In this document: piece after piece, positions 38,947 to 55,561 of the stretch
How the letters are laid out: the number at the start of each line of letters is the position of its first letter
Position numbering within the stretch: the stretch's first letter is position 1
Assembly (NCBI RefSeq): GCF_000935025.1
Contig: NZ_CP010836.1
Span: 1,178,001 to 1,242,000 of the forward strand
Length of the DNA: 64,000 nt
Direction of reading: 5' to 3'
From: Sphingomonas hengshuiensis
GTDB lineage: Bacteria; Pseudomonadota; Alphaproteobacteria; Sphingomonadales; Sphingomonadaceae
The notes under the pieces: model-generated
What the model was told of the DNA's origin: nothing
The model's database searches: none
The model's input: only the letters and a program-made list of their open reading frames with translations
Made by a program: the position numbers and the translations under genes

Positions 38947-39010
38947 GGGACGAACGGGTCCCGAGAAAGATGAATTCTTTCGAGTGCGCGCTTATACGTC
39001 GTGCCGACGT
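38947..39010. other. Probable origin of transfer (oriT)
   Basis: In the gap between traC and traA there is an inverted repeat GGGAC-GAACGG-GTCCC (38947-38962). It is followed by GCGCGCTTATACGTCG, which matches the Ti-plasmid nic-site core GCGC(n)2TTATACGTCG. A second perfect hairpin ACGTCG-TGC-CGACGT lies at 38996-39010. Position, the divergent traC/traA genes and the core sequence all fit a Ti-type oriT. The exact nick site is inferred. Confidence 0.65.
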
Positions 39011-39039
39011 GCTCGTTTAGTAGTAGATGGACGATCGCT

Positions 39040-41856
39040 ATGGCGATCTATCACTTCTCCGCGAAAGTCATCTCCCGCGCTTCAGGATCGAGCGCGGTTG
39101 CTTCCGCCGCCTATCGTTCCGCGTCGCGGCTTCACGATCAGCGGCTCGACCGGCACCATGGCTTTTCCAACAAGGCGGGCGTCGTTCATTCCGAGGTGAT
39201 GCTGCCGGATGGCGCGCCCGAGCATCTGTCCGATCGCGAAAAGCTGTGGAACGAGGTCGAAGCCGCCGAGAACCGTATCGACGCGCAACTCGCCCGCGAG
39301 ATCGAGTTCGCGATCCCCCGCGAACTTGACCATGCCGAGGGCATCCGACTTGCCCGTGAGTTCGTGAAGGCCGAATTCGTCGATCGCGGCATGATCGCCG
39401 ATCTCAACGTGCATTGGGATGTCGGCGCGGATGGGATGCCGAAGCCCCACGCGCATGTGATGCTGACCATGCGGGAGGTTGGCGAGGACGGGTTCGGCAA
39501 GAAGAACCGCGACTGGAACCGCACCGATCTTTTGGAGAAGTGGCGCGAGCGCTGGAGCGAACACGTCAACCAACGGCTAGCCGAACTCGATATCGACGCA
39601 CGCGTCGATCACCGGTCGTTTGAGGCGCAGGGCATCGACCTGGAGCCACAGCACAAGATCGGCCCAGCTGCATCGCGGATGGCGGCGCAGGGTCTGGCAT
39701 CGGAACGGCTCGCCGAGCATCACGAAATCGCCCGCGCGAACGGCGAAAAGATCATCGCGCAGCCAGGCATCGCGCTCGATGCGATCACCCGCACGCAAGC
39801 GACCTTCACCAACCGCGATCTCGCGATGTTCGTGCACCGGCACAGCGACGACAAGGACCAGTTCGACCGCGTGATGGCAGCGGTCAAGGCCCCGCCTGAG
39901 CTTGTCGCGCTCGGCAAGGACGGGCGCGGCGAAGCTCGCTTCACGTCACGTGCGATGATCGAGACCGAGCAGCGCCTTGAGCGTGCGACAAGCGTGCTGG
40001 CCAATCGTGAGCGGCATGGAGTGTCGGAGCGCCAACGCGATGTTGCGCTCGCGCGCGCTGCGGCGCGCGGCATGTTCCTGTCGCCAGAGCAACGCAGCGC
40101 GTTCGATCACGTCACCGAGGCAAAAGGACTTGGGGTCGTTATCGGCTACGCCGGTACCGGCAAGTCCGCGATGTTGGGTGTGGCCCGTGAGGCGTGGGAA
40201 GGTGCGGGCTATTCAGTCCGCGGCATCGCGCTGTCTGGCATCGCTGCGGAAAATCTTGAAAGCGGATCGGGCATTGCGTCCCGCACGATCGCGAGTCTCG
40301 AACATCAATGGGAACAGGGGAGGGAACTCCTCACCAATCACGATGTGCTCGTGATCGACGAGGCCGGGATGATCGGCACGCGTCAGATGGAGCGTGTGCT
40401 CTCCGAAGCCGAAAAGCGCGGCGCCAAAGTGGTGCTGGTCGGCGATCCCGAACAACTGCAGGCGATCGAGGCAGGTGCGGCGTTCCGGTCGATTGCGGAA
40501 CGCCACGGCGGCGTCGAGATCACCGCCATTCGCCGCCAGCGTGAAGACTGGCAGCGTGACGCAACCCGCCAACTCGCCACCGGTCGGACCGCAGAAGCTG
40601 TCCGTGCCTATGGCGACGCCGGACATGTGCACGCGGCCCAAACGCGAGAGCAGGCCAGCGCCGGTCTGATCGACCGCTGGGACCGGGACCGCCAGGCGCA
40701 TCCTGATGCGAGCAGGATCATCCTCACCCACACGAACGACGCCGTGCATGAGCTCAACCTTGCAGCGCGCGACCGGCTGCGCGCGGCCGATGAACTGGGC
40801 CAAGACATCACGATCGCCGCCGAACGCGGGCGTCGCGCCTTCGCGCCCGGCGACCGGATCATGTTCCTGAAGAACGAACGCAGCATGGGCGTTAAGAACG
40901 GGTCGCTCGGCACCGTCCAGAACCTCACGCAAACGCGTATGGCGGTGATGCTCGACGATGGACGATCGATCGCTTTCGATATCAAGGACTATAACCAGAT
41001 CGATCACGGCTACGCCGCCACGATCCACAAGGCGCAGGGGGTGACGGTTGACCGCGTGCATGTCCTCGCTACGCCGGGGCTCGATCGCCATGCTGCCTAT
41101 GTCGCGCTGTCACGGCACCGCGACCAGGTCGACCTTCACTATGGTCGCGATGACTTCGCCGATCAGGGCAAGCTGGTCCGCACGCTCAGTCGAGAGCGTG
41201 GTAAGGATATGGCTTCGGATTATGCACGAGCGCCCGCTCACGAACCCGCGCAGCCAACGCCACCCCGCAGTCGGTTCGCCGGGCTGAAGCTCAAGCCGAT
41301 GGCCGTCGAGCCACAGGCGACGCCGCTCGAAAAGGCGGTCGAGCGCTATGGGCGCGCCGCCGCCGACATCGTCCGAATGCGCCGGATGGACCTCGGGCCG
41401 CTGGAGCACCAGAAGATCGCGTTTGCCGAAGCCGGCAAGGCGCTCAATGCGCTGCGACCGGACGCCGCACGCGATTTGCGGAGTGCCATGAACGCCGACC
41501 CGGCGCTGATCGACCAGGCGGCCAATGGCAAGCCCGCCGCCGCAATCCGCGCGATGACACTGGAGAGGGAGATTCGGATCGACACAGCGCAGCGCGCCGA
41601 CCGCTTCGTCGCCGAATGGCAGCAGAAGAGCAGGCAGCTTCAGTCGCTCAATCGCACCGGCGATTACGACGCGATCCACCGCGTCCAGGACAGGATGGTC
41701 GGGATGGCCAAGAGCCTTCACCGCGACCCGCAGCTCGAGTCGCTGCTTCGAAACAGGATCAAAGACCTCGGAATCGGCAGTTCGAACGGAGCATCATTGT
41801 CTCATGACCTCCAGCAACTACCCAGCCTCTGGCGGGGTCGTGGATTGGGGCGATAG
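39040..41856 (+). CDS. traA: TraA relaxase/helicase (Ti-type, MobQ family)
   Basis: A 938-residue relaxase. Residues 1-230 are the MobA/MobL nickase domain: MAIYHFSAKVISRASG with the region after it, LNVHWD, and the histidine triad area KPHAHVMLTMREV. Residues about 340-730 are a RecD-like 5'-3' helicase with Walker A GYAGTGKS, Walker B LVIDEAGMI, GDPEQLQ and the late YAATIHKAQGVTVD. A helical C-terminal region follows. The ATG at 39040 gives the family start. It nicks oriT and unwinds the transferred strand; no type IV secretion genes are in the window, so the element may be mobilisable rather than self-transmissible. Confidence 0.9.
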   Translation: MAIYHFSAKVISRASGSSAVASAAYRSASRLHDQRLDRHHGFSNKAGVVHSEVMLPDGAPEHLSDREKLWNEVEAAENRIDAQLAREIEFAIPRELDHAEGIRLAREFVKAEFVDRGMIADLNVHWDVGADGMPKPHAHVMLTMREVGEDGFGKKNRDWNRTDLLEKWRERWSEHVNQRLAELDIDARVDHRSFEAQGIDLEPQHKIGPAASRMAAQGLASERLAEHHEIARANGEKIIAQPGIALDAITRTQATFTNRDLAMFVHRHSDDKDQFDRVMAAVKAPPELVALGKDGRGEARFTSRAMIETEQRLERATSVLANRERHGVSERQRDVALARAAARGMFLSPEQRSAFDHVTEAKGLGVVIGYAGTGKSAMLGVAREAWEGAGYSVRGIALSGIAAENLESGSGIASRTIASLEHQWEQGRELLTNHDVLVIDEAGMIGTRQMERVLSEAEKRGAKVVLVGDPEQLQAIEAGAAFRSIAERHGGVEITAIRRQREDWQRDATRQLATGRTAEAVRAYGDAGHVHAAQTREQASAGLIDRWDRDRQAHPDASRIILTHTNDAVHELNLAARDRLRAADELGQDITIAAERGRRAFAPGDRIMFLKNERSMGVKNGSLGTVQNLTQTRMAVMLDDGRSIAFDIKDYNQIDHGYAATIHKAQGVTVDRVHVLATPGLDRHAAYVALSRHRDQVDLHYGRDDFADQGKLVRTLSRERGKDMASDYARAPAHEPAQPTPPRSRFAGLKLKPMAVEPQATPLEKAVERYGRAAADIVRMRRMDLGPLEHQKIAFAEAGKALNALRPDAARDLRSAMNADPALIDQAANGKPAAAIRAMTLEREIRIDTAQRADRFVAEWQQKSRQLQSLNRTGDYDAIHRVQDRMVGMAKSLHRDPQLESLLRNRIKDLGIGSSNGASLSHDLQQLPSLWRGRGLGR

Positions 41857-43583: not shown

Positions 43584-44516
43584 TTAGCGCGTCCGCCGAC
43601 TCGCGTGCATCGCCAATTGCTGCTCTGCCTTCCGGCGCCGAGCGAGGCGTTCCAAGGATTCCGTGGCATAGCGTTCGCTTCGGTCGAGTTCCGCGGTGCG
43701 GCGGTACAGTTGCTCCGCCTTGTCATAGTCTCGATCGGATTCGGCGCACAGGCCGAGATTGAACAGCGTCGGAGCATGATTGGGGACGAGATAATCCACT
43801 TCGGTCCACAGTTTGCAGGCGGACGCCACATTGCGCTTGGTCGCCGCAATGCCGTTCTTGAAGGTCTTCTTGGCTGCGCCCTGCAGGCCGGATGTGCCTT
43901 CCTTGACGCGGATATCGGTTCGCACCTGCGCCGGGGCAAATTCGAAGCGCAATTCGCGGGCGGCATTCGATATCAGGCTGGCGATGACAACCTCGACCGG
44001 CGCGACATTGTAGGTCTGCGGACAGATCAGATTCGACGTCACCGAGGGCTTGCTCATCGAATAGAGCCGCTCTCCCCGCGGGCTGACGACGGACAATGTA
44101 TAGGTGAGCGTGACGGATCGACGCGTGCAGCGGATATTGACGACTCGCTTCTCGATGCACTTTCCCTTGTCGTTCTTCGCTACGCACTCGGTCTCCTGAA
44201 CAATTTCGACATTGTTTTCGACCGAACTATAGGCGCTGCCGGTCACCGTACCGTCCGCCCTGGGTCCGCCGCCGCCGACGAAGATCTGGTAATAGGCTTC
44301 GCCGCGCACCGAGACGTTGCGCAACTGCTGCTCGAGTTCGAGCGCCAGCGACGAACCGTCTCGTCCGTTGAACGATCCCATCCGGAGCGTGTTCAATATG
44401 GCCAGATTGTCGCTGCCGGCCGGATAGACCGCTTCGATCGGCAGTGTTTCCGCGTGCGCGGGAACAGCCGCCGCCATCGCAGCGAAGAGCACAACTGGAA
44501 GTCCGGACTTTCGCAC
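43584..44516 (-). CDS. Exported TPR-like protein of envelope cassette
   Basis: A 310-residue protein. The GTG start at 44516 has a strong AGAGGGGG site and opens a signal peptide ending in AHA-E (residue about 23); the longer open frame upstream is not used. The middle part resembles CsgG-like or lipoprotein-type beta domains (a Gly-rich FVGGGGPRADG loop, then strands). The C-terminus (about 240-300) has a tetratricopeptide-like pattern (APTLFNLGLCAESDRDYDKAEQLYRRTAEL). The protein probably works in the periplasm with its cluster neighbours. The domain assignments apart from the TPR are weak. Confidence 0.6.
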   Translation of the reverse strand: MRKSGLPVVLFAAMAAAVPAHAETLPIEAVYPAGSDNLAILNTLRMGSFNGRDGSSLALELEQQLRNVSVRGEAYYQIFVGGGGPRADGTVTGSAYSSVENNVEIVQETECVAKNDKGKCIEKRVVNIRCTRRSVTLTYTLSVVSPRGERLYSMSKPSVTSNLICPQTYNVAPVEVVIASLISNAARELRFEFAPAQVRTDIRVKEGTSGLQGAAKKTFKNGIAATKRNVASACKLWTEVDYLVPNHAPTLFNLGLCAESDRDYDKAEQLYRRTAELDRSERYATESLERLARRRKAEQQLAMHASRRTR

Positions 44517-44671
44517 GAGAACCCCCTCTGTAATATCCGTTGGCATATTGCCCGTTGCTACGAGCGAGACAGTCTTCAACTCGACGGTTACCTTAGCGCC
44601 ATCCTGTTTGTCCGCAATCCCCGGCGCAACAGTTCCCTGCCGCAAGAGAAGCTTTCGACGAACGCAGTACA

Positions 44672-46012
44672 CTATTGCTGGGTCGCCGATACCGACAGGG
44701 CCGGCTTGGCAGGATCGGACGAAAGCTGCACCTCTTCGTCCTTGACTTCCCCCTTCAGCGTCTCGCCCTTGATGGTGAATTCGAAATCCCGCGCGCCGGC
44801 CAGGGGCATTTCGGGTTTGAACTCCTTGGCTGCGTCGGAGCTCGATTTCCACTGCTGCGCGAAGCCCGACTTGTCGGAGATGATCTTGCAGTCTTCGTCG
44901 GTCTCGCAAATCATCGTGCCGGACATCGGCGTGACGCTGGCATTGCTGCCGAGCAAGGCAAAGAAGGAATAGACGAGGTTGTTCCGGTCGTCCCTGGCGA
45001 CGACCATCTGCACCGACTCGGGTCCTGCGTCATATTCGACGCGCCCGGCAAATTCGAGCGACTGGACCGGCGGACGGGTCGCCACGGTGGGCACGCTCGA
45101 GCCGAAATAGGCCAGCTTCGCGCCCTGGCCGAGGATGAAGCCGCCCAGATACTCCTTTTCCTTCAAGGCCGACCCTGGCGGCTGGACCAGGTAGACCTCG
45201 GAGAATCTGAGCACTTGACCGACCTGCTTGGCGGACGCGATCCCCCTGAATTTGGGGCTTTCATTGGCCTCCGGGCCCTTTTTGCCGGCCTCCGGGCTCA
45301 TTTTGCTCGCCTCCGCCCCTTCTTGACCGGCCTCCGGGCCATCGTACCGGAACCGCGACAGGTCTGACACCAGGAAGATCCGCCGCGCGGATCCCTCGGC
45401 TGGCTCGAGCAGCTGCTGCGACGCCGCGAGCGACTGGACAAGCGCCGAGCTCGCGAATGGGCCGCCTGTGGATTTTCCGGCACCGTCCAGCTCACCAGCG
45501 GATGCGAAGATCGCGGCGAGGAGCGACTCCGTGAACTTGCCGCCGGCGTTGGTGACTTCGGCCAGGGGATCGCCCGAGGTCCATTTCTCCCAGCCGCTGG
45601 TGCCCGCAAGCACCTTCGCCTGCTCGTCGATGGTCAGGCCGGGGACGCAGCCGGTGAAAATCAATCGCCCGGCGGACCCGTCGGCCGGCAGGACGATCAG
45701 CGAGACTCGCTCGCGCGGCGCGATCATTCCGCTTGGAAGCCCGCGGTCGGGGCCGACGACGGACAGCAACAGCTCGCGAATGAAGCCGTTCTGCTCCCGA
45801 AATTCCTCGGGAGAGCTGGAGGGCTTCATCGCGACGGCATCGATGACCACGAAGCTGTGGCGCTTCGAAGGCGGCAGGTCGTCGATGTTGCAATAGGCTT
45901 CTTCCCGGTCGGTACCGGAAACGGCGCGGCTCTTCTTGTCCTTCTCGGGTCCGCACGACGCGAGCACTGCCGCTGCTGCGAGCGCGACGATCATCCGGAG
46001 TCTCAACATCAT
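44672..46012 (-). CDS. Lipoprotein with vWA-like region
   Basis: A 446-residue protein with a lipobox (VLASC, Cys20). Residues about 50-220 suggest a von Willebrand A-like fold: the first strand FVVIDAVAM, SLIVLPAD, and RRIFLVSDLSRF; but the classical DxSxS motif is not intact. Residues about 225-250 contain short imperfect Glu/Ala/Gly/Lys repeats, then a C-terminal beta-rich part. The start overlaps the stop of the coiled-coil membrane protein gene (ATGA). The likely location is the outer or inner membrane facing the periplasm. Confidence 0.6.
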   Translation of the reverse strand: MMLRLRMIVALAAAAVLASCGPEKDKKSRAVSGTDREEAYCNIDDLPPSKRHSFVVIDAVAMKPSSSPEEFREQNGFIRELLLSVVGPDRGLPSGMIAPRERVSLIVLPADGSAGRLIFTGCVPGLTIDEQAKVLAGTSGWEKWTSGDPLAEVTNAGGKFTESLLAAIFASAGELDGAGKSTGGPFASSALVQSLAASQQLLEPAEGSARRIFLVSDLSRFRYDGPEAGQEGAEASKMSPEAGKKGPEANESPKFRGIASAKQVGQVLRFSEVYLVQPPGSALKEKEYLGGFILGQGAKLAYFGSSVPTVATRPPVQSLEFAGRVEYDAGPESVQMVVARDDRNNLVYSFFALLGSNASVTPMSGTMICETDEDCKIISDKSGFAQQWKSSSDAAKEFKPEMPLAGARDFEFTIKGETLKGEVKDEEVQLSSDPAKPALSVSATQQ

Positions 46013-47280
46013 GCCTCCGCCTTGTAGAGATACAACCGCGCCGCGGCGAATTCCGCTAGGCTGAGATCTTCGGAATCGTCGTCCGGAAACGATTGTGCCG
46101 TGTTCTTCTTAAAGCGCAAATCACCGCTTTTGGGCCTGATCGCCTGCCGAAGCCGATTGCGATACTCAGTCAAGAGGCCAATTACCCGGTTATCCTGCTC
46201 TTCCAGTTTATTCAGCTCTCCCAGCAGCTCTGCGAAACCATCCATTCCATCCATTTGCCGGGCTTTATCCTTGATCCTACGATTGTCCAAGTCACGCTTT
46301 TCGATCAGTTTCTCCCTGGGATCGTATACATTCTTCTTCTTTAGTTTCGCCAGCCGCTCCTCGGCTTCATTCAGTTTTTCAGCCAGCTCTGCGAATTCGG
46401 GGTTAGGGTCATATTGTTTCGCGGTGGTCAGGACGCCGATAAGGTATATGGCAAGATTGAATCCAACCAGCTGAATAACGATCAAAAATATATTCGGAGC
46501 ATCCTTGCCAATTAGCTCCGCTCGTTGCACATCTTCCTGTAGACCAATGTATCTTATAGCAAAAACTATCGCCAAGATGATGAACAGCGCAATAAAGCCG
46601 CCGGCGGTAATCATAATGTTCTTTTGTCGTTCCTGGCGGCCGGCTTCCATCCAATATCCACGCTCGGCCAGCCCCTTTCCGAGAAAATGAACACCAAAAG
46701 CTACAACCAGTACTATCACCAGTGTAACGCCTAGAGATATCAACCCGCTAGGAAGTACTTCGATTAGATTTGAATAATTGAAAATTCCTTCGATGATGCC
46801 GGCAAGAGCGGGCGGCGCGGATTTTATGAAGAAGCTTCTGTTGATCGCGTCTCGCCCTATTTCCGCTTTCATCTTACTATATTCTGATCGCAACTGTCTC
46901 TTGCTGCTCAAGTCCGAACCGTACTGCTGCTTGAAGTCAGTATAGAGTTTGCTGATATCCCAGTTCAGTTTTCGTTCGAGGCGATCCTGCTCGATCGAAT
47001 ATACGATCCCCGTGATGTCGCCTCCCCGGTCGCCCAAGCGAAACTTCCTCGCTTGCTGTTCGATCTCGCCCAGCATCTTTTGCCGGGCGGGGACGACGTT
47101 GAAGGCCATCCAGCTGTTCATCTCCGGCGTAAGGTTCTCGCTCCACGAACCCGGGTCGCCATCGCCGGTAAGGACGATGTCTTCTTCGTGCATCGCCTCA
47201 CCAGCGATCTTCCCGAACAGGTCGGCAGCGATCTTGCCTTCCTTGCTCAAGTCGAGATTAAGATATTCGTCACCAGTCAT
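46009..47280 (-). CDS. Inner-membrane protein with three helices and coiled-coil tail
   Basis: A 423-residue protein starting after a run of G ending GGGGGGGAACTTC. Residues 1-165 are soluble and charged. Helices lie at about 178-200, 222-245 and 265-290. Residues about 300-400 form a long charged coiled coil (FAELAEKLNEAEERLAKLKK). No known family was recognised. The layout (short-loop membrane bundle plus long cytoplasmic helix) is loosely like MotA/ZorA-type proteins but without their sequence signature. It overlaps the vWA-like lipoprotein gene and follows the OmpA gene by 21 bases. Confidence 0.6.
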   Translation of the reverse strand: MTGDEYLNLDLSKEGKIAADLFGKIAGEAMHEEDIVLTGDGDPGSWSENLTPEMNSWMAFNVVPARQKMLGEIEQQARKFRLGDRGGDITGIVYSIEQDRLERKLNWDISKLYTDFKQQYGSDLSSKRQLRSEYSKMKAEIGRDAINRSFFIKSAPPALAGIIEGIFNYSNLIEVLPSGLISLGVTLVIVLVVAFGVHFLGKGLAERGYWMEAGRQERQKNIMITAGGFIALFIILAIVFAIRYIGLQEDVQRAELIGKDAPNIFLIVIQLVGFNLAIYLIGVLTTAKQYDPNPEFAELAEKLNEAEERLAKLKKKNVYDPREKLIEKRDLDNRRIKDKARQMDGMDGFAELLGELNKLEEQDNRVIGLLTEYRNRLRQAIRPKSGDLRFKKNTAQSFPDDDSEDLSLAEFAAARLYLYKAEA

Positions 47281-47301
47281 GAAGTTCCCCCCCCCGAATA
47301 T

Positions 47302-48318
47302 TCATTTGCTAGCGCTTGCAAGTTCAACCTGTCGATTCACGGGATTGATAACAAGCCTCGGTGCATTGCGCGGAATGACCACCACCCTGGTCGGTGCCTC
47401 TGGCGCCGTTTCCCGAGTGCTGTTCGATTGGCCGATCGGTTCGCGTCCACGGCCGGAAGGAGCGGTTGGCGGCCTGGTCGGCGAGCGTGCAGTCACCCGC
47501 TGGCGTTTCGCTCGCACAGTGACTTGGCGCGTCGGTCCGGGGTCCGGACTGACCACTCGCGTCGCTACATAGCCGGGCAGCATCAGGAGGCTGGCCAGGC
47601 ACTTGGCGCTTTCCGCGGTGCTTCTCGAGTGGCAAAGATCCGGGTCCGCCAGCCATACCGCGATGGGTTCGGGCTTGGCGGAGAAGAGAAATTCGATGCG
47701 ACGATTTTGCCCCCAGGCGACTTCGTCTTCCCCGGCCACCAACGGCAGGTCCTCGCCGAAGCCGATCCGCCAGACCATGCTCTGATTGATGCCGTAGCGG
47801 AAGATCGTCGTTGCCACTGCGTCTGCCCGATTGATCGACAAGGCCTCGTTGTAGTCGGGATCGCCGCGGCGATCGGCGTGCCCCGCAACGAACAACGTCA
47901 CGTCCGGGGGCTCGCGCCGCAGCGACTCGGCGATGATGCTGGCGATCTCCCGCGCTTCGGGCCGCAACTCGCTCCTCGCCGTGTCGAAGAAGACGCGGTC
48001 CGGGAATACGACCCGCAGCACAGGGATATCGACTCCATAGCCTTCAGGCAGCCGGAAGCGCGGAATTACGGTTTCGAAGAACTGCGGCCGCTCGTCCGGC
48101 GGCAAGTAGGATGACAGGCGCTGCAAGCGCTTGATACGGTCGCAATGCTCGAGCGCGACGGTCCCCTGCCACGGGGCGACGCGTCCCCGATGTTTCGCGT
48201 CGAGCAATGATCGGCAGTCATCTGGCAAGGCGCCAACAGGTCTGGAGGATTGCGCCAGCAGGGGCGTGGACAAAACCATTGCGATTGCGAAGAACAGGGC
48301 CGCCGTGATTTTCCGCAT
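47302..48318 (-). CDS. OmpA family peptidoglycan-binding protein, first gene of cassette
   Basis: A 338-residue protein with a signal peptide (residues 1-22, LLAQ). An OmpA/MotB C-terminal-type domain lies at about 105-215: VFFDTARSELRPEAREIASII, then FVAGHADRRGDPDYNEALSINRADAV and the NRRIEF end. The C-terminal 100 residues are a Pro/Arg/Ser-rich disordered tail. It should bind peptidoglycan and tether the complex made by the following four genes. It has no N-terminal beta-barrel, unlike OmpA proper. Confidence 0.8.
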   Translation of the reverse strand: MRKITAALFFAIAMVLSTPLLAQSSRPVGALPDDCRSLLDAKHRGRVAPWQGTVALEHCDRIKRLQRLSSYLPPDERPQFFETVIPRFRLPEGYGVDIPVLRVVFPDRVFFDTARSELRPEAREIASIIAESLRREPPDVTLFVAGHADRRGDPDYNEALSINRADAVATTIFRYGINQSMVWRIGFGEDLPLVAGEDEVAWGQNRRIEFLFSAKPEPIAVWLADPDLCHSRSTAESAKCLASLLMLPGYVATRVVSPDPGPTRQVTVRAKRQRVTARSPTRPPTAPSGRGREPIGQSNSTRETAPEAPTRVVVIPRNAPRLVINPVNRQVELASASK

Positions 48319-48800
48319 AGCCTGAAGATTCCACCTCAGTTTTTTGACCGGCCAGCTTTCTTATTTAGATGTAGCCGATCCGAGTCAACGACGGTGGTGG
48401 TTCAGTTAGTTTAGCGGAAATCAGTATGCTGCGGCGCCCGCATCTTTGTAAGGTCGCCTCGCGGAATATCCCACACTGAATGTTCGGAGAATTCGGGGAT
48501 GTGATATGCAGAACGCCCGGCCTTGGGCTCGTGCTCAAAGTCGATCAAGGCTTGAGCTGTTACCCAGAGCTGACATTGCTCACGGACTAAGCCACTGAAT
48601 AAACAATTCAATGTACAACAAAATCGCTCTTTTTTTATGGCAGCTTTCGGGCCTGAGCGGCCCGAGGCTGAATGACGAGGATTTGGGTCGGGAGCCGCCG
48701 GGCGGCTTCGCGCCCCAATTACAGTCGTCTAGCTGCAGCAACGAAGACGCCGAAAGCGGACATTCGATCACGCCGGACAGAATCGAGACTGGGTGTCGAT
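48319..48800. other. Intergenic between divergent envelope cassette and defence-like cluster
   Basis: This gap should hold the promoters of both divergent units. On the minus strand 48411-48611 there is a 66-codon open frame with protein-like composition (FEHEPKAGRSAYHIPEF) but only a TTG start; it may be a gene fragment. Nothing else is supported. Confidence 0.4.
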
Positions 48801-49514
48801 ATGCAGCTGCGGATATGCGAAGAGACACTGAACGCACCGCCCGCCTATGGAGATCGTGTGGACTCACTCCTAACGGATTTGGAGCGCTATGGCTGGTGCC
48901 GGTTTGCTACAAGCTTGGAGTGTGAGGCGGAGATCGCTCTCGCCGCCGACCGAGCAGCCGAGCTTCTAGGCCGCCCCACCTCCGGGCGAGCTGGCGCAAC
49001 TCAAGAGGCGATTGTTCCCCGCGTTCGGACAGAAGCGCATCCCCGCTCTCAAAGCGCCACGCATGGTCTTGACGCGCTTCCGCTCCATGTCGAGCTGAGT
49101 CACAGGTCGGTGCCTTGCAGATACGTTGTTCTGGGCTGTGCCGATCCCGGGCACCCCGGCAGCGCTACGACGACTTTGGAATGGCGGACACTTGGATTTA
49201 CGGCTGATGAGATCGCTCTGCTGAAGGGCGCACCGCTGCTAATCCGGAACGGGCGAAGGTCATTCTACTCAACGGCCCTCCCCCGTGATGGACGCTTCCT
49301 TCGCTACGATGGCGAATGCGTAGAAGCGGTCGATGCGAGGGGCCACGCTGCCCTTGAGGCGATCCGAGCTCGTCTCTCGTCGGTGACACCCACTGCGCAC
49401 TGCCTGCAGCGAGGTGAGGTTTTGGTAATCGACAACTGGCGGATGCTGCACGGGCGTGAAGTCGTCGCCGAACACAGCGGACGAAGGCTTACGAGGAGAC
49501 TGGTGGATGCCTGA
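48801..49514 (+). CDS. TauD/2-oxoglutarate dioxygenase-like protein
   Basis: A 237-residue protein. ALPLHVELSH in the middle resembles the HxE/D iron-binding motif of clavaminate-synthase/TauD-like Fe(II)/2OG dioxygenases. LVIDNWRMLHGREVV ... RRLTRRLVD near the C-terminus supplies the distal His and the 2OG-binding arginine in the expected order. The N-terminus is short for the family. The ATG at 48801 is chosen; longer in-frame starts exist upstream. The end overlaps the start of the HEPN/zinc-ribbon gene by eight bases, so the two are co-translated. A hydroxylase in a defence-like operon is unusual. Confidence 0.6.
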   Translation: MQLRICEETLNAPPAYGDRVDSLLTDLERYGWCRFATSLECEAEIALAADRAAELLGRPTSGRAGATQEAIVPRVRTEAHPRSQSATHGLDALPLHVELSHRSVPCRYVVLGCADPGHPGSATTTLEWRTLGFTADEIALLKGAPLLIRNGRRSFYSTALPRDGRFLRYDGECVEAVDARGHAALEAIRARLSSVTPTAHCLQRGEVLVIDNWRMLHGREVVAEHSGRRLTRRLVDA

Positions 49515-50442
49515 CGACGTTTTCATCGCGATCAGCGGAGAGGCGCTTCATGCCAAGTCCAAGGTCTACATCGGTCGCGCAATGGCACGAAAGGCGGCTG
49601 AGGATCTCGACGAATACCAGTTGTGGGCGTCGCTGGCGCTGGAACTGCTTGGCAAGGCAGCGCTGGCTTACCGACATCCCAGCCTAGTAGTGGACCCGAC
49701 GAACTGGAAGTCACTGTTCGTGGCGGCAGGCGTTAACGTGACCACCGACGTGAAGACGATCACTGCCAAGACCTTGTTTGAACGGTTGGCACATCTCGTA
49801 CCGAGGTTCGATCCGTTGATGCACAAGTTTTGCATGGATATCTCGGAACGGCGAAATGCTGAGCTGCACTCTGCCGACATTCCGTTTCGCGCCATGCGCC
49901 TTGGGGCGTGGGAGGCAAGATACTGGCATGCCTGCGATGCGATACTCCGTGCCATCGAGTCGTCGCTTGAGGATTGGCTGGGCGCTGATGCGGAAGCACC
50001 GAGGCAGATCGTTGCAGAGGCGGCCGCAGCGAGTGATGCCGCCGTGAAGCTCAGGGTGGAAACGGCAAAAGCTTGGTTCGCCGGGTTGAAAAAGGCGGAG
50101 CGGGAAACGCTCGCACAAGAGGCGGACGGTATGATGCCTATCGATCAGGTCGCCAGCTTCGCAGTTGCCTTCGACCAGATATGGATCGAGACCTGCCCCG
50201 GATGCGGCTGTCGCGCCTTCTTGGCCGGCGATCAGACGGGCGAGGACATCAAACAGGAGAACGACGAATACGCGATGTGGGAGATCGTGGAGCGTGAGTT
50301 CGTCGGCGACGAATTTAGGTGCCCGACCTGCAAACTCGTCCTTCTAGGCGGCGATGAACTCGATTCAGCGGGCATAGACTATATCCACACCGACGAGGTC
50401 GAGCGCGAGATGGAATACGAGCCAGACTATGGAAACGATTAG
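49507..50442 (+). CDS. HEPN-like protein with C-terminal zinc ribbon
   Basis: A 311-residue protein. The N-terminal helical domain carries ISERRNAELHS, with R116-N117 and H121 forming the R-x4-H HEPN signature. A helical linker follows, and then a zinc ribbon with CPGCGC (Cys230, 233, 235) and CPTC (Cys272, 275), ending in an acidic tail. HEPN domains with this motif are often RNases activated during phage or plasmid conflict, and the ribbon could sense or bind nucleic acid. It is coupled to the dioxygenase-like gene before it and 184 bases before the GHKL-nuclease gene. A second HEPN plus zinc-ribbon protein is encoded at 54251-55282. Confidence 0.65.
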   Translation: MPDDVFIAISGEALHAKSKVYIGRAMARKAAEDLDEYQLWASLALELLGKAALAYRHPSLVVDPTNWKSLFVAAGVNVTTDVKTITAKTLFERLAHLVPRFDPLMHKFCMDISERRNAELHSADIPFRAMRLGAWEARYWHACDAILRAIESSLEDWLGADAEAPRQIVAEAAAASDAAVKLRVETAKAWFAGLKKAERETLAQEADGMMPIDQVASFAVAFDQIWIETCPGCGCRAFLAGDQTGEDIKQENDEYAMWEIVEREFVGDEFRCPTCKLVLLGGDELDSAGIDYIHTDEVEREMEYEPDYGND

Positions 50443-50626
50443 CGGCGGACCGATTTAACCAAATCGCCTCTTTTTGACGTCAGATTTGCCTCCGACATTC
50501 GGTCGTTCGGTGCTGACAGCGTCCATTCCAAAGGCCGCCATTTGGGCAGCCACGCCGCTTGACCTGTTCGTAGGCGCCGGTCAAAACGGCTGCAGAATAC
50601 GGCCCCTTGGTGAACAGCACACGAAC

Positions 50627-52756
50627 ATGACACTCGATATCCGGGGCAGCATCAAAAATACGAGGCTCAGCAAGAACCGCTATGTCGTGTTCGAAGAGCT
50701 GATCTCGAACGCGATCGACTCCTTCCTTATCCGCAAGAAGGCCGAAGGAGCGGTGGCGCCGCTATCGATCCTGATCGACGTCGATTTCACGGCGGCCGAC
50801 CTGCTCGGCGAGCGCGAAGCGATGGCGGTCGCGTGCGCGGACAATGGCTGCGGGCTCGGCGACGAACAGCTGAAAGCCTTCCTTACCAAGGACACCTCCT
50901 ACAAAGATGACCTCGGCATCGTCGGCATCGGCAAGTGCAAGGGTGCAGGGCGCATCCAGTTCTTCCACCATTTCGCCGAGATGGCGATCGACACCCGGTA
51001 TCGCGATGGCGACGATGTCTGCCGCCGCACGATGCATTTCGCCGAGCCGCGCAAACAGATCGAGTTCGATGATTTCACTACGGTCGCGGCGCCGGGCGCC
51101 GATCTCGGCACGACAATCCGCCTCGAGCAGCTCAAGGAGCTCGTGCGCGAGCGCGTTTTCCAGAATGAGCGGCTGAGCGAGATTTTCGCCGCGCCGACCC
51201 TCCGCCGCGTCACACTCGTTGCCTTCCTGCAGCGCCTCGTCGGACTTGCCGATGAGCTGGGCGATTTCGAGATGCGGTTCCGTACGCACCACTGGACGCA
51301 GGGGGAGAAGATCGAGTGGCTGCGCCGCGCGGATCTGCCGGCGATCACGCGCGAAGTTCCGGTCCAGGTCGAGGAGCACGATCCTCGGAGCGGAGAAGCG
51401 CTCGGATCGCACCAGCTTTTCACGCTGTCGCACTACCAACTCGACGCGGCAGACTATGATCTGCCGCGCAACGCTATCGCGTTCTGCGCGAAATCATCAC
51501 CGGTCAAAGACATCACGGCTTACTATCTGCGGACCAAAACCGAGCAGCGCAGTCCGGTCGGCGGCTTCCATCACATCGTGCTGATCGAAGGCGAATATCT
51601 TGACGGCCATGTGAACGAGCAACGCGACGATTTCGACGACATTCCCGAAGAGGTCGGCACAGGCGGCCTCTTCGGGGGTGAGAAGCTCTCTTACGCGGCT
51701 ATTCACGAGGCGATCGACCCGGTGATCGAGGAGATGGTCGCGCCTGCGGACTGGAAGAAGGAGGAGGTCCTCAAGGATATCCTCGAACAGTTCGGTGTCG
51801 GTGTGGGCATGCTCGCCGATACCGAAACGCGAATCCGACATGGCGACAGCGCGCAGCAGGTCGTCGAGCGGGTGCTACGCAAATATCAGGAGCGCGTGAT
51901 CAACGCGACGGCGGAGATCTTCGACCTCAAGGAGGACATCATCAACACCCAGCCGGATACCGACGAATTCCGGACGAAGATCAATGAGCTGTCGTGGAAA
52001 TATACCGCATCGCTCAAGGATTTCGACATGGCGAACCTATCGCAGCTGATCGTCCGGCGCGCTGCGATCGTCGAGATCCTTGATCTCGCGTGCCGCAAGC
52101 AACTCGCAATGCAGGCGAGCACGGCGACCGGCAAGCGCCGCGACGAGCGCATCATTCACAGCATCTTCTTTCCGATGCGCAAGGACAGCACTGAATTCGC
52201 CGACCATGACATTTGGCTGCTTAGCGAGGAGTATCAGTATTTCGACCATATCGCGTCGGATAAGCCGCTCGCGCAGATACCTTGGTCAGAAACGGAGAAA
52301 ATCTTTGACAGCGATATCGACGCGGAGTTTCGAAAGCTCCTGCAGAAGCGCGCCGATGACAATGCCGGTAAGCGGCCCGATATCGCGCTTTTTAACAAGG
52401 AGGGATCGGCGATCATCGTCGAGTTCAAAGCACCCGATGTGTCGCTCGATGATCATATCGGCGATCTTTTCGAATATGCGCATCTTCTAGCCGCCAAATC
52501 GCATGGCAAGCTGCGCAAATTCTATTGCTATCTGATCGGCGACACGGTCAATCCGCTCAGGCTCAACAACTGGATTCCGTTTCCGGACGGGAAGGGGTAT
52601 TTCCAAGCGAGCACAATGCTCGATCCGGTAACCCGCGCACCGCTTGGCGAGATCTACTCCGAGATGCTTTACTATGACGATGTCGTCGCGCGCGCGAAGA
52701 AGCGGATCGCGGTCTACCAGCAGAAACTGAAGATCGATTTGCGCAGCGGGCGCTGA
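50627..52756 (+). CDS. GHKL ATPase (MORC-like) fused to PD-(D/E)XK-like nuclease domain
   Basis: A 709-residue protein. The N-terminal GHKL ATPase has an N-box FEELISNAIDS (Glu24, Asn28, Asp31), a G1 motif ADNGCG (Asp72) and a G2-like GIGKCKGAG (about 100-108), as in MORC/MutL/Hsp90. The middle is a transducer-like and helical region with a coiled coil (about 400-480). The C-terminus has PDIALF (Asp585) followed by VEFK (Glu599, Lys601), the spacing of a PD-(D/E)XK nuclease core. ATP-driven clamp plus nuclease is a defence-type design. The ATG at 50627 is chosen because homology starts there; the frame is open from 50474. Confidence 0.75.
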   Translation: MTLDIRGSIKNTRLSKNRYVVFEELISNAIDSFLIRKKAEGAVAPLSILIDVDFTAADLLGEREAMAVACADNGCGLGDEQLKAFLTKDTSYKDDLGIVGIGKCKGAGRIQFFHHFAEMAIDTRYRDGDDVCRRTMHFAEPRKQIEFDDFTTVAAPGADLGTTIRLEQLKELVRERVFQNERLSEIFAAPTLRRVTLVAFLQRLVGLADELGDFEMRFRTHHWTQGEKIEWLRRADLPAITREVPVQVEEHDPRSGEALGSHQLFTLSHYQLDAADYDLPRNAIAFCAKSSPVKDITAYYLRTKTEQRSPVGGFHHIVLIEGEYLDGHVNEQRDDFDDIPEEVGTGGLFGGEKLSYAAIHEAIDPVIEEMVAPADWKKEEVLKDILEQFGVGVGMLADTETRIRHGDSAQQVVERVLRKYQERVINATAEIFDLKEDIINTQPDTDEFRTKINELSWKYTASLKDFDMANLSQLIVRRAAIVEILDLACRKQLAMQASTATGKRRDERIIHSIFFPMRKDSTEFADHDIWLLSEEYQYFDHIASDKPLAQIPWSETEKIFDSDIDAEFRKLLQKRADDNAGKRPDIALFNKEGSAIIVEFKAPDVSLDDHIGDLFEYAHLLAAKSHGKLRKFYCYLIGDTVNPLRLNNWIPFPDGKGYFQASTMLDPVTRAPLGEIYSEMLYYDDVVARAKKRIAVYQQKLKIDLRSGR

Positions 52757-52943
52757 TAGGGCGAATCTCGGAAAGCAGTACAAAGCCAGAATTGAACCCG
52801 CGATTGCGCCCTGTGATGGTGCCCAAGTCAGCAAGTCAGCTTCTTCCAGAACATGTCAAAAAGCTGTCTGCAGTTGATGCTGTGGACGGCTCTCCACCCC
52901 TCCTGCGGTAGTATCGCGGGGTTGAGCTGGAAGGAGAGTCGCC

Positions 52944-53971
52944 ATGGAGAAGGTTACAACGATCGGTCTGGATATCGCGAAGTCGGTTTTTCAGGTGCAT
53001 GGGGTGAATGCGGATGGTGAGGTGGTAGTCCGCCGCCAGTTGACGCGAGCCAGGATGCTGCCGTTCTTCGCGAAGCTGCCGCGCTGTCTCGTGGGCATCG
53101 AGGCGTGCAACAACTCGCATTACTGGGCGCGCGAACTGACCGCGCTGGGTCATGATGTGAAACTGATGCCGGCGCAGTACGTGAAGCCCTATGTCAAGCG
53201 AGGGAAGAACGATGCTGCCGATGCCGAGGCGATCTGCGAAGCGGTGACACGCCCGACGATGCGCTTCGTTGCGGTGAAGAGCCCGGAGCAGCAGAGCCTG
53301 ATGATGTTGCACCGGGTGCGGCTGATGCTGAACCGGCAGCGCACGCAGCTCTCCAACGCGATCCGTGCCACATCTCGGAGTTTGGCATCGTGGCGCCAGT
53401 TGGCAGGCTCGGCGTTGATCGGCTGCTCGAGGTGGTCGCCGATGCTAGCGACGATCGCGTTCCAGAGGATGCGCGTCTCTGTCTGCAGATGCTGGCAGCG
53501 CAGCTCGAAGTCGTGAAGCAGCAGATCCTCGAGAACGATCGGCGCGTGCTTGCCAGCGCGCGGCGAACCGAGCTCGGGCGCAGGCTGATGGATATCCCCG
53601 GTGTCGGGCCGCTCCTGGCGAGCGCGTTCGTCGCCTCGGTTGCCGACCCCACCATGTTCAGGACAGGTCGCGACCTGGCCGCCTGGATCGGCCTCGTGCC
53701 CAAGCAGAACTCATCTGGCGGGAAGGATCGGCTCGGCAGCATAACGCGTGCCGGCAACCGTTATCTCCGGCAGATGCTCGTCGTCGGCGCCATGGCGGTA
53801 ATCCGCTACGCGCAGCGACACGGCACAAAGCGGGCTTGGCTAGTGCGACTGCTCGCACGCCGGCCGACCAAGGTTGCCGCAGTGGCACTCGCCAACAAGA
53901 ACGCCCGGATGGTCTGGGCGCTGATGACCAGCGGCGAGCGCTATCGCGAGCCGATGCCGATAGCGGCGTAG
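52944..53971 (+). pseudogene. IS1111-type transposase, frameshifted
   Basis: The two reading frames 52944-about 53369 and about 53371-53971 together make a normal IS110/IS1111 transposase closely related to the one at 33871-34893. The first has IGLDIAKSVFQVHGV, IEACNNSHYW and KNDAADAEAICEA. The second has DIPGVGPLLASAFVA and GSITRAGNRYLRQML. Between NAIRA and SEFGIVAP one C appears to be missing at about 53369-53370. The ribosome site GGAAGGAGAGTCGCC precedes the ATG. The copy is inactive unless frameshifting restores it. Confidence 0.8.
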
Positions 53972-54174
53972 AACTTTAGCGCGAGGCTCGCGCATACGAG
54001 GTTGGGAAGGGCAAAGAGGAGTTGATGCACAAAGCCGGTTGAAACCGCCGGATCGGGAAAACCCATTTTGGGCCTGGCGCTTCAAGCGCGAGCAATAGGT
54101 CGGGACCCGGTTCGCGCGAAAGGCATCATGGCCAGCGGCGCATGTCAAAGCCGCATCGAAAGGCCGGACACATG
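53972..54174 (+). ncRNA. Candidate bridge (seek) RNA region of the frameshifted IS1111-like element
   Basis: Non-coding sequence downstream of the transposase that shares ordered blocks (CCGGTTGA, ATCATGGCCAGCGG, GGCCGGACACATG) with 34894-35096. This suggests the conserved guide RNA and right end of the element. It is inferred from the comparison of the two copies in this window. Confidence 0.45.
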
Positions 54175-54250
54175 GCAGCCTCGACCAGCGGAATGCACAT
54201 CCTCAGAAAACCCTTTGCCAACGGAGGGCCGTCCACACACGGCCCATTTC

Positions 54251-55282
54251 CTATGCGCTGCCCGACTCGCCGTCAGGGTCCAGCGGTCCCTCAATCTGTC
54301 TGCGCCCCGCGGCGATGCGCGCATCCATCGCGGCCTTGTGGCGCGCGCGGCGGATAGGTTCGCGGGCATCATTGACCTGATTGCAATGCAGGCAAGTGCC
54401 CCATTTGTAATCGTCCTCGGCCAGCACATCGCAGCGGCAGCCATCGACCCCGCAGGACTCGCGCAGGACGGTTCTGGTAACGGCGCACACCGCGCAGAAC
54501 AGCTGATCCTCGCTTCCGTCGAGAAGCTGGGCGAAGCGCGAGCCGGCTTCCCAGTCGAGCTGATCGCTCGAGCAACTCAGGCACATGAACGCCCGTCGCC
54601 GCTTGTCGAACCCGAAATGCTGGCGGATATAACGCGGCGCGACCACCTTCTGCAGAAGCTCAAAATCGTTAAGGAGCCCGGTCTCGACATCGGCGCCGCC
54701 CGCGATCGCATAGCCGTCGTTGAGTTCGTGATCCATGCGCGCCGCGGCCCATCTCACCTCGGGAAACAGCGCAGCATGGGTATCGAGGATCAGTATCAGG
54801 ATGTCGCGTGCGTCCGATACGATCCGATGACCGCCAAGGTGGACGATTTTGTTACGCGCGCGCCGGCCCTCCTCGAAAAGCCTTGTGAAATTGGCATCGA
54901 GCGGTGTGTCGCAAACCGTATTGTGGACGCGCACCAGATCGGCGGCATCGAGGGTGCGGAACTCCTCGAACGAGGTCGGTCGCCGATCAGCGCCGGAGGG
55001 CCATAGCCGCGGTTCGCCGACCAGCAGCAGATAGGGGCTGACGGCTGCTACGCGCGCCTTTAGCCCCAGTTCCTGCGCTTGGTGGACCATGACCAGAGCG
55101 TGGCGCAGCGCCGGCTGGCGAGAGGCATGGTATTCCTCGCGGACACTGCCGTCATCGTCCCAAGTCTCAACCTGGGTCCGCTCAAGCAGCCGGAACACTC
55201 CGAGCGCGGTCTCCCAAGCCATGTTCAGCAGCGCTCGTGCCGAGCCATTGAGATCGTCGGACGTTGGAAGGTCGGTGATCAT
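54251..55282 (-). CDS. HEPN-like protein with multiple C-terminal zinc-binding motifs
   Basis: A 343-residue protein. A helical N-terminal domain includes EEGRRARNKIVHLGG, with R143-N144 and H148 giving the R-x4-H HEPN signature. The C-terminal part has CLSC, CAVC, CGVDGCRC and CLHC clusters, enough for two or more zinc ribbons, then an arginine-rich tail. The overall plan (HEPN then zinc ribbon) repeats that of the protein at 49507-50442. The ATG at 55282 is used; a TTG nine codons upstream is possible. It is encoded alone, opposite in strand to the defence-like cluster, and next to the tRNA-Glu that borders the core genome. Confidence 0.6.
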   Translation of the reverse strand: MITDLPTSDDLNGSARALLNMAWETALGVFRLLERTQVETWDDDGSVREEYHASRQPALRHALVMVHQAQELGLKARVAAVSPYLLLVGEPRLWPSGADRRPTSFEEFRTLDAADLVRVHNTVCDTPLDANFTRLFEEGRRARNKIVHLGGHRIVSDARDILILILDTHAALFPEVRWAAARMDHELNDGYAIAGGADVETGLLNDFELLQKVVAPRYIRQHFGFDKRRRAFMCLSCSSDQLDWEAGSRFAQLLDGSEDQLFCAVCAVTRTVLRESCGVDGCRCDVLAEDDYKWGTCLHCNQVNDAREPIRRARHKAAMDARIAAGRRQIEGPLDPDGESGSA

Positions 55283-55561
55283 TGGATTGATCTGTCCGTT
55301 AGCGTTCAACGACTGCTATAGCTACCCGCGAATTTTAAAGCTGCCAGTCCGGAACCGGCCCACAACCGGTCATTTTCCCATTCAATTTCTCGTTAAGTGG
55401 GAGACGGTCGATTGTTCGCCCCTGATCTAAAACGGCAATTAATGGCCCAGATAGGTCCAAGACCGCCCATTAAAGCCGACAGAAAGTGTGGGACCGAATG
55501 TGGGCACAGAATTCGCGATACCACCAAAAAGCACCGAATCCCGTCGATTCTGGCTTGACGA

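Follow-up and report, generated by a model that had tools for sequence, protein, structure and literature searches.

Two plus-strand genes in a 64,000-nucleotide stretch of Sphingomonas hengshuiensis DNA (contig NZ_CP010836.1, positions 1,178,001 to 1,242,000; hereafter, the window) encode a short TauD/TfdA-type Fe(II)/2-oxoglutarate (2OG) oxygenase and a HEPN ribonuclease (RNase)-like protein with a C-terminal zinc ribbon. Together they constitute a self-contained, horizontally moving two-gene module, which is apparently undescribed. We regard it as somewhat probable that this pair is a toxin–antitoxin-like or abortive RNase unit in which the oxygenase restrains the HEPN protein by oxidizing a partner, and that the gene that follows, coding for a GHKL ATPase with a nuclease core, is independent. 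An initial annotation of the window had joined these three plus-strand genes, all of which were found at the positions it gave, into a single candidate defence system. The features on which the argument is built are the following:

48801..49514, plus strand: first gene of the pair, TauD/TfdA-type Fe(II)/2OG oxygenase, short form, 237 amino acids (aa), by Pfam TauD
49086..49094, plus strand: H96-x-E98 of the oxygenase, putative proximal metal ligands, by conservation in the divergent set
49449..49451, plus strand: H217 of the oxygenase, putative distal metal ligand, by conservation; R228 and R232 downstream are candidate 2OG-binding arginines
49507..50442, plus strand: second gene of the pair, HEPN RNase-like domain (approximately residues 9-153) and C-terminal zinc ribbon, 311 aa, by fold match and alignments
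49507..49514, plus strand: 8 bases shared by the end of the oxygenase gene and the start of the HEPN gene, by open reading frame (ORF) coordinates
49852..49869, plus strand: predicted HEPN catalytic motif R116-NAEL-H121 (Rx4H), by alignments
50194..50331, plus strand: zinc-ribbon cysteines C230/C233 and C272/C275 of the HEPN protein, by alignments
50428..50439, plus strand: HEPN C-terminal tail Y308-G-N-D311, conserved and of low model confidence, candidate oxygenase contact or acceptor
50627..52756, plus strand: 709-aa GHKL (MORC/Hsp90-like) ATPase that carries a PD-(D/E)XK nuclease core at its C-terminus, start from alignment, assignment by motifs

The oxygenase and HEPN genes form a constant pair

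A collection with one genome per species (84,980 species according to the tool description) was scanned for HEPN relatives, which yielded 38 loci. At 36 of them, a TauD ORF was located directly upstream of the HEPN gene on the same strand, and the two loci without it carry a broken HEPN gene: in L037 tblastn aligns from residue 21 onwards, with similarity that is clear, by reading, only from about residue 70, and L038 is a HEPN fragment of 26 residues. The 36 paired loci include two near-duplicates (L005 and L006), one locus in which both genes are truncated (L020) and one in which the oxygenase has lost its distal motif (L036).

HEPN relatives were also detected in 26 of 72,556 plasmid records. 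Ten of these regions were opened, and all ten showed an annotated TauD/TfdA dioxygenase directly upstream, the most distant of them at 24.6% identity. Members of the pair were found in Proteobacteria, Verrucomicrobia and Actinobacteria, and 955 relatives of the HEPN protein were counted in total. No HEPN relative was present in 50,697 phage records; a phage origin of the pair was considered and rejected on this basis, with a single locus, carrying the pair, on a viral contig.

Two further samples were analyzed in both directions: an even draw of 385 genomes from the class and 398 genomes from the phylum (G000, G028 and G189 belong to both, and G507 and G511 resemble the genomes of L023 and L025). 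HEPN matches were obtained in 7/385 genomes of the class sample. Five have TauD beside HEPN (the window's own genome, G028, G059, G143 and G189); G077 contains HEPN pieces with stop codons and no TauD match, with only about 420 bases of contig preceding them; and the match in G323, at 21 bits, was taken as chance. TauD matches occurred in 62/385 genomes, with at least 70 bits in the five paired genomes and 48 bits in G300, a genome without a HEPN match, where the ORF is truncated and lacks the distal motif. The remaining matches were confined to short C-terminal stretches and scored no more than about 29 bits, which ordinary dioxygenases would be expected to give. The phylum sample contained eight HEPN loci in 7/398 genomes, each with an adjacent TauD gene. 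Nine TauD loci reached 130 bits in this sample, eight of them with HEPN, and the ninth (G451) is followed by 135 bases of contig; five weaker matches (37–67 bits) sit in longer frames of 335–360 codons.

The two genes overlap in 53 of the 57 pairs measured: by 8 bases in 24, by 4 in 26 and by 11, 7 and 1 in three, with a gap of 1–24 bases in the other four. These values are biased to small sizes, since the script picks the start nearest the stop, and the 57 include the near-duplicates L005/L006, window/L043, L023/L108 and L025/L109. Further, pairwise identities of the oxygenase and HEPN proteins across 24 hand-picked diverse loci were correlated (r = 0.88; none of 2000 permutations as high), which indicates that both proteins diverged together.

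Both proteins of the pair keep their predicted catalytic residues

Conservation was assessed with regular expressions on the 120 closest relatives of each protein and in alignments of 24–25 divergent members chosen for diversity. The oxygenase matched Pfam TauD with an E-value of 1.5e-12 and 48.4 bits (cut-off 27; the scan used the ORF from 48798, the gene itself starting at the ATG at 48801). In the divergent set, H96, D/E98 and R228 were conserved in 24/24 members, and H217 and R232 in 23/24; the roles of H96, E98 and H217 as metal ligands, and those of the arginines, are presumably the ones familiar from the TauD/TfdA family. Both motifs were present in 113/120 closest relatives, whose median length was 228 aa. 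Judged by its profile, the HxD/E...H triad and the arginine, the protein is a member of the TauD/TfdA Fe(II)/2OG family, in line with the possible 2OG oxygenase of the initial annotation.

The structure model of the oxygenase was poor, with a predicted local distance difference test (pLDDT) score of 51.9, below use for a fold search. By profile, 17 solved chains were retrieved at E ≤ 0.01, with chain lengths of 273-403 among those listed; they include clavaminate synthases, an L-lysine 3-hydroxylase, an asparagine oxygenase, L-arginine beta-hydroxylases, gamma-butyrobetaine dioxygenases and carbapenem synthases. From the entry names, we take several of these enzymes to act on amino-acid-type substrates, which weakly suggests that the substrate here is perhaps an amino-acid side chain; Asn/Asp of the HEPN tail would be the obvious candidate. 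Pfam found no nucleic-acid-binding domain in the oxygenase, and none of 24 members matched the defence-profile library (PADLOC-DB 2.0.0, 2023).

The HEPN protein had no Pfam family above cut-off and no usable PADLOC, NCBIfam or PHROGs match. Its AlphaFold model (mean pLDDT 78.8) aligned best to HEPN proteins, namely HepT/HEPN toxins, Csm6 and AbiV, which supports a HEPN helical-bundle fold. Foldseek structure searches of PDB and of BFVD found nothing at E ≤ 0.001, and profile searches of PDB sequences returned nothing useful for the HEPN or the GHKL protein. R116 and H121 (Rx4H) were found in 25/25 divergent members and RNxxLH in 120/120 closest relatives; the cysteines C230/C233/C272/C275 in 25/25, and two CxxC at the spacing of the regular expression in 118/120. 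The position two residues after the histidine (123) was occupied by G in 19, A in 5 and S in 1 of 25. Four of the 25 members matched PADLOC DUF3644 weakly, the best at 0.0025. The fold model, R116/H121 and the CxxC...CxxC arrangement agree with the earlier description of a HEPN RNase-like protein with a zinc ribbon, and the protein would be expected to cleave RNA. The YGND terminus was conserved in 117/120 closest relatives, and model confidence there was low (mean pLDDT 57 for residues 301-310, and 39 for 311).

The GHKL–PD-(D/E)XK gene is separate from the pair

The ORF of the third gene opens at 50474, but 24 of 28 aligned relatives do not extend upstream of the Met at 50627, and the gene start was therefore placed there (709 aa). 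With this start, D72 falls within DNGCG, and D585, E599 and K601 within RPD...EFK, so that the residue numbers of the initial annotation fit. HATPase_c and HSDR_N matches of the window protein were below the Pfam cut-off; GHKL Pfam domains are annotated in some relatives, and the motif columns show little or no variation. Among 120 relatives, regular expressions recovered the N-box in 113, DNGCG in 118, the glycine motif in 117 and PD...ExK in 96. By these sequence motifs (N-box, DxGxG, glycine lid and D...ExK), the protein is a GHKL ATPase with a PD-(D/E)XK nuclease core, as proposed at the outset for a MORC-like fusion.

At least 566 relatives of this protein were retrieved at E ≤ 1e-3. The gene was beside none of the 38 HEPN loci (flanks of up to 8 kb), and the 38 genomes contained no full-length relative, only two short partial matches (model positions 463-551 in G385 and 16-126 in G400). 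In the class sample, 5/385 genomes gave a match, full length only in the window's own genome. Conversely, neither TauD nor a HEPN gene of this type appeared in the examined flanks of eight GHKL loci, namely the four best-ranked of 25 plasmid records and four viral-contig loci. Among the GHKL neighbourhoods, L099 has UvrD together with a restriction endonuclease, and L097 has an ATPase gene accompanied by SIR2 and DarT-macro genes. None of 29 members matched PADLOC, and PHROG 6203 (2.4e-6) touched only the nuclease end of the protein. The gene thus reads as a stand-alone, defence-like ATPase-nuclease, separate from the pair. Of the three-family association envisaged in the initial annotation, the oxygenase–HEPN part held (36/38 and 8/8) while the GHKL part did not, and this split leaves three-gene unity, including an ATPase clamp, nuclease and RNase acting as one machine, not supported.

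Relatives of the GHKL–PD-(D/E)XK protein were also observed on viral-classed contigs (L104, L105, L106 and L107; 67, 66, 61 and 43% identity), possibly as cargo of prophage-like elements.

The three genes lie in a duplicated mobile block

The genome of the window (5.23 Mb, two contigs) contains, on the same contig, a second copy of most of the block, and the surrounding features are as follows:

48703..55362, no strand assigned: duplicated span, second copy at about C1:2,872,236-2,880,294 of the same genome
52944-53971: IS110-family element 3' of the GHKL gene, transposase apparently split into ORFs 52944-53516 and 53390-53971
54251..55309, minus strand: possible second HEPN-type protein with RNKIVH and cysteine pairs, by eye and weak PADLOC matches
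39001-41856: relaxase/helicase-type gene, TraA-like by reading
43584-48318, minus strand: four-gene set of OmpA-domain, membrane, lipoprotein-like and TPR proteins

The second copy aligned in four pieces (48703-50432, 50421-52874, 54240-54357 and 54348-55362) with 99.1-99.7% identity, and differed by 6, 6 and 7 bases over the compared coding parts of the oxygenase, HEPN and ATPase genes, respectively. The IS110 part (about 52875-54239), which follows the ATPase gene in the window, is not common to both copies. In the second copy, a transposase gene (IS256-like by reading) splits the HEPN from the ATPase gene and alters the final residues of the HEPN protein; a further transposase gene interrupts the counterpart of the 54251-55309 gene, part of which is present. 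Given that the three genes lie in one block recently copied within the genome, their adjacency here is not a conserved association. Each copy also has close to it, in a region with 73% DNA identity, a relaxase-type gene (by reading) of approximately 950 codons, on one side of the block in the window and on the other in the second copy, which suggests that the two copies may be carried by related conjugative elements. tRNA-Glu attachment repeats were considered and rejected, as exact copies of the 18-40-base end stretches of tRNA-Glu were found neither at another place in the window nor in L043.

The product of 54251-55309 has RNKIVH after a helical-looking region, several cysteine pairs and weak PADLOC matches (HEC-08, 0.016; DUF3644, 0.027), and is possibly a second HEPN-zinc protein. 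The OmpA-domain protein of the 43584-48318 set gave weak ZorB-like PADLOC matches, and this set is a possible envelope-linked island module.

Gene neighbours of the pair in other genomes

No constant partner other than TauD was found among the loci compared, and no constant biosynthetic neighbour among 50 loci. A TrlF-type ORF lies directly upstream of the pair in 8/50 loci, named TrlF in the three annotated ones, and in L048 a TrlF gene is downstream, its product matching PADLOC Ppl at 1.9e-141. TrlF was not detected above cut-off in the window genome, in a search that also gave below-cut-off matches in all 14 control genomes. A GIY-YIG gene follows the pair in four loci, and other neighbours were HipA (L002, and L010 with the same ORF cluster), UvrD (L015) and a HerA-type helicase (L033). 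Two Verrucomicrobial pairs adjoin type I restriction genes, with HsdS and a caspase-domain gene flanking the pair in L029, and HsdR in L032. Within about 10 kb of the pair, we also found SIR2 (L047), AbiV and AbiH (L049), VapBC (L051), and UvrD with an ATP-dependent endonuclease (L052). Many loci have no identified defence neighbour, and these neighbour counts are raw.

A model for the pair and its alternatives

In bacterial conflict, HEPN RNases commonly serve as effectors. In our model, the HEPN endoribonuclease with its zinc ribbon would be the effector, and the small Fe(II)/2OG oxygenase, made by coupled translation and, from the gene order, before the RNase, would keep it in check by oxidizing a partner, most likely the HEPN protein itself, with the acidic Y-x-N-D tail as candidate site. 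The RNase would then be freed upon loss of the oxygenase supply, 2OG, iron or O2, or by a phage-triggered change. Three points led us to rank restraint through HEPN first: the three HEPN genes that lack an oxygenase are all broken, although these are few and one of them lies at a contig edge; this class of enzyme tends towards substrates of the amino-acid type; and the HEPN tail, while apparently exposed, is conserved. We put forward only tentatively the more specific proposal that the oxygenase is an antitoxin hydroxylating HEPN, probably at Asn/Asp of the Y-x-N-D tail; restraint would then require O2, iron and 2-oxoglutarate and would break down upon infection. If control by an oxygenase partner is true, hydroxylation would join the ways to control a toxin and abortive defence would be tied to the metabolic state; the two-gene size makes the pair directly testable.

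Fixed pairing and co-divergence fit an inhibitor and an activator alike. The oxygenase might act as an activator or sensor, turning the RNase on by oxidizing HEPN or a small molecule, so that abortive infection would respond to a phage product or to the status of 2OG, iron or oxygen; we hold this to be doubtful, as the broken state of the three lone HEPN genes is what would be expected if an unaccompanied RNase were harmful, although these are three cases and one lies at a contig edge. Slightly more credible, albeit still unlikely, is self-marking, in which the oxygenase would hydroxylate host RNA (e.g., tRNA) and the RNase would spare it while cutting unmodified RNA. Such restriction-like logic would suit the pairs beside HsdS (L029) or HsdR (L032) in Verrucomicrobial loci, and HEPN proteins such as HepT are described as RNases in a previous study (PMC7641770). 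It is at odds with the lack of a Pfam nucleic-acid-binding domain in the oxygenase and with the amino-acid-type substrates that several of its nearest solved relatives presumably use.

We give very little credence to a single defence system of all three genes. They are adjacent in the window and also occur, with an insertion between them, in the second copy; nevertheless, that copy is a near-identical duplicate and not independent evidence, and in other genomes the GHKL gene and the pair were found apart on every count reported above (0/38 pairs, no full-length relative in 38 genomes, eight GHKL loci without the pair). Equally improbable is a metabolic or regulatory pair with no defence role, where the oxygenase would make a small molecule and the HEPN-zinc protein would regulate. 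Clavaminate-synthase-like enzymes are frequent makers of small molecules, but the patchy spread (7/398 genomes), the occurrence on plasmids, the lack of a constant biosynthetic neighbour and an RNase motif intact in 25/25 members speak against it.

Comparison with known systems

PADLOC gave no match to known anti-phage systems for the window proteins of the pair or the GHKL gene, and together with Pfam, NCBIfam and PHROGs it provided no usable assignment of the HEPN protein. No description of the oxygenase–HEPN pair was found in the literature searched (titles and abstract openings in one library), with searches directed at the pair, its components and neighbours such as TrlF, and oxygenases in defence. 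The 2013 survey of the HEPN superfamily does not contain "dioxygenase" or "oxygenase" in its main text (PMC3710099), and two papers that mention both HEPN and dioxygenase concern, in the parts available, other matters (PMC8195603, PMC7159879). This constant oxygenase partner recurs across several phyla, both on plasmids and on islands, and had no match in the defence-profile library.

The window oxygenase resembles TauD/TfdA and clavaminate-synthase-like oxygenases (clavaminate synthase, AsnO, arginine beta-hydroxylase and lysine 3-hydroxylase) in sequence family, HxD/E...H triad and arginines. In contrast, the solved chains listed have 273-403 aa, versus a median of about 228 in the present family, which is encoded with HEPN. 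Ppl/TrlF-family ATPases adjoin some pairs, but they are not a required part and were not seen at most loci. PrrC and RloC are anticodon nucleases tied to type I restriction; the pair is similar in that a HEPN RNase stands beside restriction genes in L029 and L032, whereas it has no ATPase fusion, has a separate oxygenase, and had restriction genes identified at few loci.

A close parallel is HEPN-MNT (HepT-MntA, type VII), where a HEPN RNase and a partner enzyme likewise make up a unit of two genes. The pair shares Rx4H with it, and the HEPN model aligns best to HepT-type structures. In HEPN-MNT, the enzyme serves as the antitoxin and modifies the toxin covalently, by nucleotide transfer (AMPylation). 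The partner there is an MNT nucleotidyltransferase, whereas here it is a TauD-type oxygenase, and the HEPN protein described here has, in addition, a zinc ribbon and a conserved tail. Class I HEPN-MNT pairs are described as having their acceptor Tyr at the second position past the His (RX4HXY; PMC7641770); at this position the present family has G, A or S. Should tail hydroxylation prove true, it would represent a new class of toxin control, the oxidative counterpart of HEPN-MNT AMPylation.

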